From positions 1 through 64,000 of the forward strand of contig QKDN01000051.1 in NCBI GenBank assembly GCA_003252535.1: a stretch of 64,000 bases of DNA, given 5' to 3'. This DNA is from Campylobacterota bacterium. GTDB lineage: Bacteria > Campylobacterota > Campylobacteria > Campylobacterales > Sulfurovaceae. The notes below the pieces were generated by a model. It searched no databases. It was not told where the DNA came from and saw nothing but the letters and a program-made list of their open reading frames with translations. Both the position numbers and the translations under genes were made by a program. Below, in pieces: positions 22,349 to 27,617 of the stretch. Each line of letters opens with the position of its first letter. Position 1 is the first letter of the stretch.

Positions 22349-23254
22349 TTAAGCCTCCCGGCGGTGGGCAGGATAATATCTCTTCTGGTGGGCCATGATC
22401 GCCTTGTAGACCTCCGGGAGTCTTCCTGTGTCGCGGGGGACGGCGATGGAGTAGATATCGAGGCTGTGTGCCATCTTCGAAAGGAACTCGAAGTTGGTCC
22501 GTTCGAGGAAGCGGAACTTGACAAAGGCATTCGTCCCGAACCTGCGGAACTTTTCGATCCCCTTGAGCTTCCTGATCCTCACATCGGCATCTGCGGGCAC
22601 TTCGGTGAGGCTATAGACGGCTTTGATCTTCTCTTTGTGGGTGACAAAATCGTAGCAATACTCCCCAAGCGATTCAGGCTGTCTGTAGGGTCTGTGGAAG
22701 GGGTAGGAGGAAATGGCATAATAGTTGTCGTCCTCCACTTCGACCCCCAGTGAATCGTCGCAGATCAGTGGGTGGGAACGCTGCAGGAAATAATCGACGA
22801 GTGTCGATTTGCCTCCATATGACGGTGCACAGAAAAGTACCGCAGAGCCGTCTATATCGACACACCCCGCATGGATGAGATGGTATCGGCTCTCCAGCTG
22901 GAGGAGCAGGGGGAGGAATGTATGCAGTACCCAGTAGCGGAGATACTCCGGGGTATAGCCGGCACTTTTTTCGTAGGTGATGAGTCTCTTTTTGCCGTCC
23001 CAGAAGAGGCGGAGCCTCCCCGTCACCTCCATCGCCCAGGAATCGCCGCTTTTGATCGCATTGAACGCGACCAGCGAAAAGAATCTCACCTCCTGCTCTG
23101 CAAGGTTGATAGGGGGTGTGGTGTAGATGGCGCGCTCGGTGAAAGAGGTATTCGAGGCATGGATGACCGGGATGAGAGGGAATGATGTATCGCTCCTTCC
23201 GTCATCGATCTGTGGCTCGTCTGCGAAGTGGACATTGTATCCGAATGAGATCAT
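22349..23254 (-). CDS. HPr-kinase-like (HprK-related) ATP-binding protein
   Basis: The 301-residue protein matches the C-terminal half of HPr kinase/phosphorylase-like proteins: LIHAGCVDIDG, the P-loop APSYGGKST (143-151) and LICDDS (about 163-168). The N-terminal 110 residues are unlike HPr kinase itself. Relatives occur in peptide-modification loci, where one such kinase phosphorylates the lasso peptide paeninodin. There is no phosphotransferase system gene nearby. The ATG at 23254 has AAGGAGG properly spaced; the upstream GTG would overlap that site. It is divergent from the small Tat-type peptide gene, with a shared promoter palindrome between. Confidence 0.75.
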   Translation of the reverse strand: MISFGYNVHFADEPQIDDGRSDTSFPLIPVIHASNTSFTERAIYTTPPINLAEQEVRFFSLVAFNAIKSGDSWAMEVTGRLRLFWDGKKRLITYEKSAGYTPEYLRYWVLHTFLPLLLQLESRYHLIHAGCVDIDGSAVLFCAPSYGGKSTLVDYFLQRSHPLICDDSLGVEVEDDNYYAISSYPFHRPYRQPESLGEYCYDFVTHKEKIKAVYSLTEVPADADVRIRKLKGIEKFRRFGTNAFVKFRFLERTNFEFLSKMAHSLDIYSIAVPRDTGRLPEVYKAIMAHQKRYYPAHRREA

Positions 23255-23269
23255 AGGCACCTCCTTTTT

Positions 23270-23284
23270 GTGCTATAATAGCAC
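23270..23284. promoter_or_regulatory. palindromic divergent promoter core
   Basis: GTGCTATAATAGCAC is a perfect palindrome around a central A. It provides TATAAT (23274-23279) on the plus strand for the peptide gene and TATTAT on the minus strand for the HprK-like gene. Both starts and ribosome-binding sites (GGAGGTG and AAGGAGG) lie at sensible distances. Confidence 0.6.
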
Positions 23285-23322
23285 AGAGGGGTAAACAAAC
23301 AGAACCCATGGAGGTGCAGACG

Positions 23323-23541
23323 ATGAAAGAAATATCCAACGAGCAGGAGAAAAGAAGGAAATTTCTCAAAAAGGCATGGGTGGTTCCCACCCTCTTTGCC
23401 CTCGGTACGCTCGAAGCGAAAGCGGCAGGGAATAAGACTGCGAGCGAGCTGTGCGAGCAGACGGGGCCGAACTCAGTCTTTTGCGAGTGCGTGAAGGACC
23501 CGAACTCAAGTCCTGCCTGTAATATATTTCTTAATCGGTGA
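23323..23541 (+). CDS. small cysteine-containing peptide with Tat-type leader
   Basis: A 72-residue product. Residues 10-17 (KRRKFLKK) match the twin-arginine consensus, followed by a hydrophobic segment (AWVVPTLFALG) and an EAKA-A cleavage-like site near 34. The predicted mature peptide of about 37 residues has four cysteines (44, 54, 56, 66) and many Ser/Thr/Asn. GGAGGTG six bases before the ATG at 23323 fixes the start. It faces away from the HprK-like gene and could be its substrate, which is inference. Its last 11 bases overlap the end of the convergent DUF1566 gene. I know no characterised homologue. Confidence 0.65.
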   Translation: MKEISNEQEKRRKFLKKAWVVPTLFALGTLEAKAAGNKTASELCEQTGPNSVFCECVKDPNSSPACNIFLNR

Positions 23542-23953
23542 CACCGCCCCGCACGCAGCGGACGTAGTGAGTCTGGTCTTTTTCTGTGGGTTGGGCATAC
23601 CCGGCGTAGAAATTGACCGTCCATGCCTGCCCCAGGTATCCTGCCCGTGTGGTCGATGTCCAGTAGGAATCGGGGAGGGTGTCGCCAAAAGTGGTATCGA
23701 TACTCGGGTTGGAGTGTTCGTATGATACGATAGTCTCAAGCTCTTTTCTGTTGGGGAGGCGCCAGTCGCTTTGTCCATCGAGACCGAGCGATGAACAATA
23801 CTGCAAAGCGCCCTCCCATGACATCGCTTCGACCGAAGAGGCCTCTTCCCAGACCAGTGTCGTCTGCTGGTCATATACCATCTGGTTCTTGACGGTGTAT
23901 GATGCATCGAGCACAAGCGGCACGGTGCAGAGTGCCAGTAACATTTTCATCAT
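23531..23953 (-). CDS. small exported DUF1566 (Lcl C-terminal) protein, copy 1
   Basis: 140 residues: a short signal sequence (MKMLLALCTVPLVLDA) and one DUF1566 domain. The domain is marked by V-Y-D-Q-Q-T-T-L-V-W-E-E, Y-C-S-S-L-G-L-D-G-Q-S-D-W-R-L-P-N-R-K-E-L, S-Y-W-T-S-T-T and the final Y-V-R-C-V-R-G-G. This C-type-lectin-like fold is found on surface proteins of many bacteria, function unknown. The start at 23953 has GGAGAAAGA. It pairs with the large lipoprotein just upstream, and the pair is duplicated at 25705-27617. Confidence 0.82.
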   Translation of the reverse strand: MMKMLLALCTVPLVLDASYTVKNQMVYDQQTTLVWEEASSVEAMSWEGALQYCSSLGLDGQSDWRLPNRKELETIVSYEHSNPSIDTTFGDTLPDSYWTSTTRAGYLGQAWTVNFYAGYAQPTEKDQTHYVRCVRGGVTD

Positions 23954-23966
23954 TCTTTCTCCTTTA

Positions 23967-25523
23967 TCACTCGATCTCCCTGACACATCGTATCAGGACA
24001 TTGTTCTGTTCTTTGTTGATGGTATTCGTATTGCCGTAGAGGAAGTTCACGACCCACGCATAGTAGGGATTGCTCTCCAGTGTCGTCGATGACCAGTAGT
24101 GATCGTTCGCGTTCGTATAGTTCTTGAAGATCGTATAATCGAGCGCCGGGTTGAGCTTGTCACTGCTGACGATGCTCTGGAGCTCCTCTATCGTAGGGAG
24201 TCTCCAGTCGCTGTAGCCGCCGAGCACAAGGTCTTCGCAGTAGGTCGTGGCCGTATCGCCTGCGGTCATGTTCCACATATTCGACCCGTAGGCTTCTTTG
24301 GTCAGCCATGCCTTGTAGTTCTTTTTGACGTTGTTGTCGTCCTGCCACATCAGCTTTTTGTTCTCATCGATGACGACATCCCTGGAGTCGTCCCTGCTTA
24401 AAGTGATATCGATCCCCGATTGATAATACCCGTCATCATACGAAGAGTAGCTTGTTTTCTGTCCGGTTTTGACAACGAGGTTCTTGGTCGATGTCGGCTC
24501 GGTACTGCCGAAATCGGTAGGGGGGACGGAGACTACCTCTTCCTGTACGGTCGTCTCCTCCTGGATAGTTTCCGCCGGCTCAATGGTCTGGGTCTGTATC
24601 GTCGTGGTCGCCACGCCTGCTGGAATCGTATCATAGAGGACGATCTCATCAGCACTCGCCAGAAGCGATGTGTCGATGTTTAGAAACTGCGATATCATCC
24701 CCTCGGTACTTACCGTCGATTCACCAAGCAGCAGAAGGAGCGTCGCGGCTCTCTGGCCGGCATCGAGTTTCATCTTGCTGCCATAATTGACAAGGGCATC
24801 GCTCAGATAGGCAAGGTCGTCATGAAGCATCTTGGAGAGTGTCGTGATGTCATCACCTGAGTTCATCGTGGTGATATAGGTGGTCATCATCAGTACCTGT
24901 GCCCCTTTGGTGAGGGTGATACTGCTCGTCGCACCGCCGATCGCCATCAAGAGATAGGCAGTTTTGTATTCGGTGAGGTCGGCCTTGTTACTTTCATAGT
25001 AGGCAAGGAGGGTCTGTGCGACACCGCTGATCTCATAGTTGGCGACCACTTCGCCGTTCTGGATCTTGGTGATCTCGTATCCCGCTTCGGTATACGTCAG
25101 GGCAACTTCGTAGATCAGTGTGGCAGTCTCGTCATAAACGCCTATCGTGAGTCCGTCACCGTTCTCCTGATAGGTATATGTCAGGTGGGAAAAGTTGCCG
25201 TAGATCGATGAGAGCTCACCGCTGTTGTAAAAGAGCGTCATATCTTCAACGGAGTCACGATAGCGTGCCTGGGAAATACTCCCTGAACTGAACCAGACCT
25301 GGAGTGTCGTCTCGTTCGCCGAGATGAGCAGCGGGGTGTCGCTGCCGGACGTTTTGTCCGAGATGATACTCAGATCGGTCGTTTTGAAGCTGGTGTTCGT
25401 TTCGGATGTGCTCTCTGTTGTAGCCTGAACACTTTCCGTTGCGGCACCTGGTGTATAGAGCTCGCATCCCGTGGATACAAACAGGAACAGCACTATTGCT
25501 GTCAGATTGAGATAACTGGACAT
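23967..25523 (-). CDS. large DUF1566 lipoprotein, copy 1
   Basis: 518 residues with a lipoprotein signal ending in the lipobox VSTGC, an approximately 330-residue N-terminal region of unknown fold (with repeated Q-T-x-E-P-A-E/T-V-Q-E-E linker), a Y-D-D-G-Y-Y-Q-S-G motif, and a C-terminal DUF1566 domain (K-K-L-M-W-Q-D-D, Y-S-D-W-R-L-P-T-I-E-E-L, Y-W-S-S-T-T, L-I-R-C-V-R). It is probably anchored to the outer membrane and displays the lectin-like domain. AAGG precedes the ATG at 25523. It lies 13 bases ahead of the small copy and resembles the protein at 26139-27617 along its full length. Confidence 0.82.
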   Translation of the reverse strand: MSSYLNLTAIVLFLFVSTGCELYTPGAATESVQATTESTSETNTSFKTTDLSIISDKTSGSDTPLLISANETTLQVWFSSGSISQARYRDSVEDMTLFYNSGELSSIYGNFSHLTYTYQENGDGLTIGVYDETATLIYEVALTYTEAGYEITKIQNGEVVANYEISGVAQTLLAYYESNKADLTEYKTAYLLMAIGGATSSITLTKGAQVLMMTTYITTMNSGDDITTLSKMLHDDLAYLSDALVNYGSKMKLDAGQRAATLLLLLGESTVSTEGMISQFLNIDTSLLASADEIVLYDTIPAGVATTTIQTQTIEPAETIQEETTVQEEVVSVPPTDFGSTEPTSTKNLVVKTGQKTSYSSYDDGYYQSGIDITLSRDDSRDVVIDENKKLMWQDDNNVKKNYKAWLTKEAYGSNMWNMTAGDTATTYCEDLVLGGYSDWRLPTIEELQSIVSSDKLNPALDYTIFKNYTNANDHYWSSTTLESNPYYAWVVNFLYGNTNTINKEQNNVLIRCVREIE

Positions 25524-25704
25524 ATTGTACCTTGCCAAAATGGAATAGTTAAAAAAAAGATAGAGGATTATATCTATCGATAACTTAATAAAATACTAAA
25601 ACAGGTAGAAATTGTTGAGGAAAGTATCATTTAATGGTTTTTTAATTGTTTAAGATGCCTCCGGTAACAGGAGGCAAGGGGGAAGAAACGGCGGGTATTT
25701 CCGG

Positions 25705-26139
25705 CTATTCTACGCCGCCTCTGACGCAGCGTACAGAGCGGTTTTGCGTCTTGTCTGCGTACTGGACGTAGCCGGAGTAGAAGTTCACCGTCCACGCCTG
25801 CCCGTCGTATCCGGTCCTGGTGGTCGAAGTCCAGTACTCTTCGGAAGATGTATTCTGGAAGGTGGTATCGATGCTCGGTGCTTCGCGTCCGTAGTCGATG
25901 ATACTTTCGAGCTCTTTTTTGTTGGGGAGTCTCCAGTCGTTCATGTCCCCAAGGCTCAGCGCGGCACAGTAGGTGACGGCGCTCTCCCACGCCATAGGGC
26001 TCGGAGAGGCGGTATCCTGCCATAGCAGTGCCGTCCTGTGGTCGAGGACCATCTGGCCCTGCGCGGCGAAAGAGGCCTCTGCCGAGATCGTCGCGGCAAA
26101 GAGCGGCAGCAGAATTTTGATCATAGTTTCTTGTTTCAT
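25705..26139 (-). CDS. small exported DUF1566 protein, copy 2
   Basis: 144 residues, paralogue of the gene at 23531. It has a signal sequence (IKILLPLFAATISAEA) and a DUF1566 domain with the same landmarks (LDHRTALLWQD, DMNDWRLPNKKELESI, EYWTSTTRTGYDGQAWTVNF, V-R-C-V-R-G-G). The start TAATG overlaps the stop of the large partner, so the two are co-translated. The conserved W-T-S-T-T-R-x-G-Y-x-G-Q-A-W-T-V-N-F-Y core is nearly identical in both small copies. Confidence 0.82.
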   Translation of the reverse strand: MKQETMIKILLPLFAATISAEASFAAQGQMVLDHRTALLWQDTASPSPMAWESAVTYCAALSLGDMNDWRLPNKKELESIIDYGREAPSIDTTFQNTSSEEYWTSTTRTGYDGQAWTVNFYSGYVQYADKTQNRSVRCVRGGVE

Positions 26140-27617
26140 TACATATCCCTTACACATCGAATATAGGCATTGACATGGTCTTTGCTGTAGATATTGGTAT
26201 TGCCGTACATGAAATTGACCACCCATGCATCAAAAAGGTCGCTGCTGGAGGTGGTAGATGACCAGTAGACAAACTGTGTGTTGTAGTTGACGAAGATGTC
26301 GTAGTCCATGGCAGGGTTGATCTTGTCGTCTTTTACGATGCTCTGCAGCTCCTGTACGCTCGGAAGTCTCCAGTCGTCGTAGCCGCCAAGCTCCAGGTCC
26401 TTGCAGTAGTTTGTTGCCGTCTCACCGCTCGTATCGTTCCATGCGCCGTTGTCGTAGTTCTCCTTGATGAGCCACTGTCTGCTGTTGCTCTTGACGGCAG
26501 CGTCATCCTGCCACATCAGCTTCTTGTTGTTGTCCGTGACGATCTCTTTGGTATCGTCACGCACGAGCGAGCTGGCGAGACCGCTCTGGTAGTATCCGTC
26601 GTCATAGAGGACGAAGCTTTTTGTCTGTCCCGTTTTGAGCACTGCCGTAGCGTCGCTCAGCTCCAGGGCGACGAAGAAGTTCGCACTGTCCGAATGGGAT
26701 GAGATATCCTTGATCTCTTTTGCTATCTCCGGCTGTGATGAGAGGCTTACCACTTCTTTGGGGAGCGTTTCGTAGAGCACTATGGAGGCACTCTCGTCCA
26801 GCCCGACGGTACCGTTCAGATACTCGCTGATGACCGGATCGGCACCGGCTGTATCGGCGCCTATATTCAGGAGTGCTGCCGCACCTTTCCGGGCAAAGCT
26901 CAGGGTACCCTCTGCCGTATTCTTGAGGGCGGCATAGGAGAGCTGCAGCTGGTTCTGGAGGTTTTTGGCGAGGGCATACGAATCATTCTGCGAATCGAGC
27001 GAATAGACAAAGCTGCTCATGGAAGCAGCAAGAGCGGCATTGACAAGGATATCGCTCCCGATGGAACTTCCCGTTGCCATGAGCATGGTGATCATCTGTC
27101 CGTTCTGCGTGTCGCTGCTTCCCTCTGCAAGTATGATTTTGGCAGTATCGCTGAGAGGATACTCCTCTTCGATCTCCCCATCGACCACCCTGTAAAGCTT
27201 TGAGCCTGTCAGGACGATATCGTAGAGATGTTTGTTCTGCGCATCATAGCAGGAGATGCTCACCCCGGAAGAACTTTTTGCGAGGGTATAGAAGCTCTGA
27301 TCGGCGTTGTTGTATATCCACACCAGTTCGCCTCCTTCGAAGAAGAGACTCAGATCGTTCACCCCTTTCTCGAATCTGGCCTGGTTGATCTCGCTGTTGC
27401 TGTTCCACAGCTGAATCCTGTTACCTTTTGAGACAATGATGATAGAGGCCTCGGAGTCGGAAATGACATTGGAGATGATACTGATATCTGTACTTTTGTA
27501 GCTCTCTGTCTGTGCTGTCGGAGTGCTGCCTGATACTGTATCGGAGCTTCCGCCACCACAGGCAGAGAAGAACAGTAGCCCGAGTATCGGGAGAATGATC
27601 CTGAATATACGCTGCAT
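26139..27617 (-). CDS. large DUF1566 lipoprotein, copy 2
   Basis: 492 residues with lipobox FSACG, a low-complexity Gly/Ser start, a long N-terminal region similar in layout to copy 1 (ST-D-(I/L)-S-I-I-S, then a T-G-Q-K/T-S-x-x-x-Y-D-D-G-Y-Y-Q-S-G linker) and a C-terminal DUF1566 domain (K-K-L-M-W-Q-D-D, Y-D-D-W-R-L-P-S-V-Q-E-L, Y-I-R-C-V-R). AAGGATC precedes the ATG. It is the first gene of the four-gene array, so the likely promoter is in the AT-rich stretch before it (27618-27700). Confidence 0.82.
   Translation of the reverse strand: MQRIFRIILPILGLLFFSACGGGSSDTVSGSTPTAQTESYKSTDISIISNVISDSEASIIIVSKGNRIQLWNSNSEINQARFEKGVNDLSLFFEGGELVWIYNNADQSFYTLAKSSSGVSISCYDAQNKHLYDIVLTGSKLYRVVDGEIEEEYPLSDTAKIILAEGSSDTQNGQMITMLMATGSSIGSDILVNAALAASMSSFVYSLDSQNDSYALAKNLQNQLQLSYAALKNTAEGTLSFARKGAAALLNIGADTAGADPVISEYLNGTVGLDESASIVLYETLPKEVVSLSSQPEIAKEIKDISSHSDSANFFVALELSDATAVLKTGQTKSFVLYDDGYYQSGLASSLVRDDTKEIVTDNNKKLMWQDDAAVKSNSRQWLIKENYDNGAWNDTSGETATNYCKDLELGGYDDWRLPSVQELQSIVKDDKINPAMDYDIFVNYNTQFVYWSSTTSSSDLFDAWVVNFMYGNTNIYSKDHVNAYIRCVRDM

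Follow-up and report, generated by a model that had tools for sequence, protein, structure and literature searches.

A divergent HprK-like kinase and twin-arginine peptide gene pair in Sulfurovaceae: a candidate phosphopeptide cassette with an RRE-docking motif inside the export signal

Phosphorylated RiPPs are known from few cases. Paeninodin is phosphorylated at its C-terminal Ser, and a His-Lys-Asp-Asp set is essential in the lasso-peptide kinases (PMC9266682). The Linear Polyphosphorylated Peptides (LPP; LppA/K/B/S/D/N) of Bacillota, reported in 2026, are phosphorylated at core Ser3, and LPPs and paeninodins have been called restricted to Bacillota (PMC13381572). Lasso, PQQ and LPP precursors carry a [Y/W]xxPx[L/V/I/A/F/Y] motif, which is bound by PqqD-type RREs (PMC13381572).

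Here, we describe a gene pair from a member of the Sulfurovaceae that is best explained, in our view, as a related system. The window, namely the whole 64 kb stretch of DNA that was analysed, contains the following features.

22349 to 23254, minus strand: predicted HprK/PEPCK-fold peptide kinase, 301 aa.
23269 to 23285: palindrome TGTGCTATAATAGCACA, made up of TGTGCTAT-A-ATAGCACA, between both start codons.
23323 to 23541, plus strand: precursor peptide, 72 aa, with a Tat-type leader and a four-Cys core.
23353 to 23424, plus strand: leader segment RRKFLKKAWVVPTLFALGTLEAKA, a twin-arginine signal by consensus reading, with a predicted signal-peptidase site after AKA.
23377 to 23394, plus strand: WVVPTL, a candidate [Y/W]xxPx[L/V/I] RRE-docking motif within the hydrophobic core.
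23425 to 23538, plus strand: predicted core AGNKTASELCEQTGPNSVFCECVKDPNSSPACNIFLNR, 38 aa, with 4 Ser, 2 Thr and 4 Cys.

The kinase ORF was listed as 22349 to 23260 on the minus strand, starting from an alternative GTG at 23260. The ATG at 23254, with AGGAGG ahead of it, is the better start and gives the 301 aa protein. The match to Pfam Hpr_kinase_C (PF07475) is weak (18.8 bits, cut-off 33.3). Scores were also below the cut-offs for the HPr kinase/phosphorylase model TIGR00679 (18.6 of 240 bits) and for TIGR04352, the HprK-related kinase A system model (22.2 of 200 bits). With these scores and a different N-terminus, a canonical HPr kinase role was rejected. An AlphaFold2 model (m215e0075c4fb, built from 27 sequences, pLDDT 91.8) matches HprK/P over residues ~123-300 (Z 14.3, rmsd 3.6, 135 aligned) and PEP carboxykinase (PEPCK) over nearly the full chain (Z about 14, rmsd 5-6, about 248 aligned). 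The original prediction, that an HprK-like domain is joined to an N-terminus not found in HprK, agrees with this model, which aligns to HprK only over residues 123-300. Residues 1-120 of the model align with PEPCK and not with HprK, hinting that peptide kinases of this kind keep a fuller PEPCK-like architecture. His130, Lys151 (in the P-loop), Asp168 and Asp169, numbered from the GTG start, are invariant in an eight-member kinase alignment and correspond in residue type to the His-Lys-Asp-Asp set of the lasso-peptide kinases.

The peptide gene has a GGAGG ribosome-binding site, its own frame scores best of the six for codon usage, and its product is ordered MKEISNEQEK-RRKFLKKAWVVPTLFALGTLEAKA-AGNKTASELCEQTGPNSVFCECVKDPNSSPACNIFLNR. 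A (S/T)RRxFLK consensus (KRRKFLKK in the window), a hydrophobic core and an A-x-A site are all found in the leader, which is therefore assigned, by consensus only, as a putative Tat signal. Reading of the ORFs thus agrees with the original description of a 72-residue gene, divergent from the kinase, that encodes a twin-arginine leader and a four-cysteine mature peptide. That description also noted that no protease gene is visible; a dedicated protease would not be needed, because the leader is a predicted signal peptide with an AxA-type cleavage site. If cleavage is after AKA, the W of WVVPTL is at position -16 and the P at -13. A match of the peptide to FXa_inhibition (E 0.01, 16 of 33 bits) was set aside as a chance likeness of the cysteine pattern.

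In the 68 bp gap between the divergent genes, the predicted palindrome is exact, with 8 bp arms. Only three palindromes with arms of at least 8 bp and a loop of 0-1 occur in the 64 kb, this one among them, and the number expected by chance in a 68 bp gap is about 0.003. Within it is an extended -10 (TGCTATAAT), and it could serve as a divergent promoter, as an operator, or in both roles. The palindrome sequence is absent from every other locus fetched, and the idea that it is an operator common with the PqqD locus was dropped, as it was not found in the fetched PqqD locus. Beyond the peptide gene, four Lcl_C-domain genes (23531 to 27617) consist of a two-gene unit duplicated in tandem (173+492 aa and 151+523 aa), and the end of one of them overlaps the end of the convergent peptide gene by 11 bases. 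The Lcl_C proteins were considered as a missing secreted partner and rejected, as there were no relatives among the fetched ORFs of other loci.

Single-sequence searches with the kinase across genome contigs and with the peptide across viral contigs found no relatives, and profiles were needed. The kinase is present in 7 of 10 genomes of the window's genus, often beside an Asn synthase, a Transglut_core3 B2 or a PqqD, i.e. in lasso-like clusters. Among 175 genomes of the same family, Sulfurovaceae, a kinase profile search found 57 carriers. In L014, a neighbour gene of another kind stood out, encoding a 54 aa twin-arginine peptide. A peptide profile was made from 18 twin-arginine peptides found in kinase neighbourhoods, leaving out that of the window, and run on the 175 genomes. 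Strong matches (E about 2e-14 or better, or, for the window's own peptide, E 5e-8 and 34.4 bits) were found in 35 genomes, all 35 of which have the kinase (Fisher p=4e-22), and PqqD was found in 52 of the 57 kinase carriers versus 17 of the 118 other genomes (p=1e-23), though these p-values overstate the evidence because the genomes are related by descent and not independent, and the peptide profiles were seeded from kinase neighbourhoods. None of the 118 genomes that lack the kinase has the peptide. The five kinase carriers without PqqD include four incomplete genomes (74-88 % complete). Lasso genes are present in many of the 22 kinase carriers without the peptide, and the weaker matches to the peptide profile were for the most part ordinary Tat proteins, several hundred residues long or longer. 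The link between peptide and kinase also holds when the two are on different contigs (e.g. in G001, G002, G048 and G057). Hence, the original concern that the peptide might be absent wherever the kinase occurs does not apply. The pairing is not a coincidence, and comparison of these sequences supports the earlier idea of a kinase-modified exported peptide system.

A kinase tree (IQ-TREE, 64 rows) splits with support of 100/99 into one half in which 26 of 29 contexts are of the lasso type and another in which 26 of 35 are Tat-peptide contexts. The window kinase falls in the Tat-peptide half as sister to that of L094 (support 96/74). Among the listed peptides, only those of L094 and the window have WxxP rather than YxxP. 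The exact placement of the window kinase is unsure because its branch is long (1.25).

The docking motif was found, 9-10 residues after RR, in 36 of 37 short twin-arginine ORFs that were gathered near kinases without requiring it, versus 0.7 % after shuffling of the same segments and none of 18 ordinary Tat signals from the same search. The leader profile also weakly cross-matches true lasso precursors in neighbouring clusters. The G062 genome is a single contig and gave one PqqD match. One of its loci holds a Tat-peptide-kinase pair together with a lasso set that has a kinase of its own, so both leader types probably use that one RRE. The c-region includes K or R in 43 of 51 peptides, and 50 of 51 cores contain Ser or Thr, which in many of them falls among the first three residues or in PPSxP. 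Apart from a 1-Cys core in L213, all cores have 0, 2 or 4 Cys, and these counts fit disulfides that would form after export. The window core has no motif in common with the usual Gly/Pro/Trp cores.

These distributions bear on whether the kinase has another target or is a sensor, the peptide being an unmodified small secreted protein that merely has the same locus and promoter. HprK relatives do phosphorylate a protein, HPr, the divergent order with a common promoter would suit such an arrangement, and modification of the peptide is something that we infer. Yet in the 175 genomes the peptide never occurs without the kinase, even unlinked, the kinases are split by peptide type in the tree, the leader carries an RRE-docking motif, and PqqD co-occurs with the kinase. 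We consider this explanation unlikely.

In many loci of the family, a short twin-arginine peptide gene is directly beside the kinase gene, often directly upstream, and the divergent order is also found in L121. The named loci are mostly from Sulfurovum, Nitratifractor and other Campylobacterota MAGs. In another family of the same order (L211, L212 and L215), the peptide, kinase and PqqD genes are three neighbours on one strand, and the cores have two Cys, e.g. ...TSSA-ASCTAANPCSQPTDTGSSNSGNNDEGGFKGAF. A locus from a third family (L213) includes two peptides, the kinase and PqqD. One Tat-leader peptide there (L213:3188-3643), near the kinase and PqqD, has a repetitive, Asn/Gly-rich core of ~110 residues, and Tat-peptide cores are thus not always short. 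L214, L216 and L217 are of the lasso type. Whole modules are also present in a Thermodesulfobacteriota MAG (L155) and a Methyloprofundus MAG (L168), for which binning error is possible. In G134 (L218, C25:33000-44500), a broken peptide gene (RRAFLKKSVYSAS, then off frame) is near a weak kinase match and PqqD, and this is a clearly degraded, decaying cassette. Many genomes of the family have lasso-type clusters, made up of ABC, B2, kinase, Asn synthase, PqqD and a YxxP precursor (L019, L067, L068, L214 and others); the ABC transporter gene is located with the lasso genes. The L019 cluster additionally includes an FAD oxidoreductase and a 439 aa protein without a Pfam match.

Lipoproteins of ~240 aa (L058:2201-2920 and relatives, alignment A4) adjoin the peptides, and their C-terminal tails vary with the neighbouring peptide core. 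The tail FG[LY]PP goes with the core FGxPPSxP in 9 of 10 cases and FD[LI]xKPP with GPxGPP in 13 of 16 (tail-core association, p about 9e-6 with kinship ignored). In the two-cassette loci L112 and L120, each lipoprotein tail fits its own peptide. No structure matched a model of the lipoprotein with confidence (best Foldseek E 0.03, best VIA Z 5.5). Large secreted proteins (LamG, FG-GAP, P-domain; L058:41-2200, L067:2777-4972 and others) often end like GFWxxLHGPTKxKTVKLLIPxE. To judge from these sequences, the three products (peptide, lipoprotein and surface protein) seem to form a single exported group.

The window pair has neither of these usual neighbours, lipoprotein or large secreted protein, next to it, and a search of the window genome did not find the partner lipoprotein. 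The genome contains exactly one PqqD match, of 102 aa, on another contig (G000:C67:119797-120105), upstream of a gene for a 929 aa AddA-like protein. The original statement that no PqqD-like gene is visible therefore holds for the window and not for the genome, and many relatives have PqqD in the same locus. For the PqqD of the window genome, the nearest matches are the lasso RRE TbiB1 (E 2.6e-9) and lasso PqqD models, and its score is below the curated cut-off for the HprK-related kinase A system model TIGR04353 (24.7 of 35 bits). TatC is also present (E 3e-61).

The location of PqqD on another contig, the lack of the partner lipoprotein from the genome, the atypical core and the long kinase branch raise the question of whether the cassette of this family survives in the window only as a remnant in decay; G134 provides a clearly degraded copy. 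We think this improbable, as both frames are intact with ribosome-binding sites, all invariant kinase residues are retained, and RR, WxxPxL, an even number of Cys and a compact promoter have been kept; moreover, operons without the lipoprotein exist in another family.

As the kinase family and the docking motif are common to lasso clusters, a lasso or other cyclic product, made via enzymes encoded elsewhere, was also considered. A search of the window genome found no Transglut_core3 (lasso B2) over the cut-off, the best weak match being a 659 aa protein. Three clear Asn synthases are encoded in this genome; they start with MCGI or MCAI, like glutamine-dependent enzymes, at least two of them sit among glycosyltransferase-like genes, and no lasso cyclase was detectable. 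The core is also without the usual lasso Gly1 plus Asp or Glu at positions 7-9. A lasso product was therefore rejected, and a cyclic product of any kind is very unlikely; without a B2 over the cut-off and with Asn synthases of the ordinary type, a linear product is the simplest reading.

We regard it as probable that the pair is a phospho-RiPP cassette with a linear product. For binding, phosphorylation and its acceptor residue, export, cleavage and the order of the steps, we infer the following. The leader would have two roles, as Tat signal and as docking site for the RRE. PqqD, supplied from elsewhere in the genome, would bind the W/YxxPxL of the leader and present the core to the HprK-like kinase, which would phosphorylate a core Ser or Thr. 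Release of PqqD would uncover the Tat signal, TatC would export the peptide, signal peptidase I would cleave after A-x-A, and the four cysteines may then pair as disulfides in the periplasm. Because the docking site is inside the Tat hydrophobic core, binding of PqqD could hold back export until the core has been modified. Against the phospho-RiPP reading, the window PqqD is non-adjacent, the partner lipoprotein is missing, and the window kinase and peptide are both long-branch. Against export via Tat, cores of 8-38 residues would be very small cargo for a pathway that is known for folded proteins.

More tentatively, these loci may belong to an undescribed RiPP branch in which, with the docking motif inside the Tat core, PqqD brings in the kinase while masking the export signal, phosphorylation is a checkpoint, and the phosphopeptide then acts outside the cytoplasm with matched surface proteins. 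The kinase-RRE-peptide logic spans a lineage of sulfur-oxidising, vent-type bacteria, with the export signal fused to the docking site and operons of as few as three genes. Its small size makes it well suited to studying what an RRE contributes to kinase action, and also how cells keep an unmodified precursor from being exported, which for the Sec-exported bufferins is still an open question (PMC12452194).

In a literature search, which left most subscription journals and preprints outside its scope, no paper coupling Tat signals with RRE-guided RiPPs was found. The redox chaperones TorD and DmsD (REMPs; PMC3316669 and PMC3712460), which bind Tat signals, offer a likeness, namely the idea of a maturation chaperone that binds a Tat hydrophobic core and delays export until maturation is complete; in the present proposal, a PqqD-type RRE would take the place of the chaperone, and phosphorylation would be the maturation step. 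A precursor leader that is an export signal is also found in MNIO-modified RiPPs with Sec signal peptides, bufferins among them (PMC12452194). However, the signal is Sec and not Tat, the enzymes are MNIO oxidases and not a kinase, and no PqqD docking motif is described. The paeninodin-type kinases PadeK, ThcoK and PsmK (PMC9266682) are similar in being HprK-like with the His-Lys-Asp-Asp set and, as proposed here, in acting on a linear precursor with an RRE-docked leader, and the same kinase family is found in lasso clusters of Sulfurovaceae. The differences are that no cyclase C or B2 peptidase was detected in the window genome and that the window core does not end in Ser.

The LPPs are similar in having a linear precursor, an HprK-like kinase, a discrete PqqD-type RRE, no cyclase and, by prediction here, a signal-peptidase-type cut. 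The RRE corresponds here to the one, non-adjacent PqqD of the window genome, and to an adjacent one in many relatives. The [Y/W]xxPx[LVI] leader motif is at W-16/P-13 in the window versus Y-16/P-13 in LPPs, and many Tat peptides have S or T in the first three core residues, where LPPs are phosphorylated at Ser3. In contrast, the leader here is a twin-arginine signal and that of LPPs is YxxPxVLxHQxIxFETxxS, with only the [Y/W]xxPx[L/V/I] part in common, and no LPP-type SpI peptidase, MsbA-like exporter or NTP transferase was recognised among the inspected neighbours of the peptide loci. The host is Campylobacterota and not Bacillota, and the genes that usually accompany the cassette encode a lipoprotein and a large secreted protein. 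Differing from LPPs in leader consensus and in the SpI, exporter and NTP transferase set, the cassette is therefore to be seen as a variant of LPP logic rather than an LPP.
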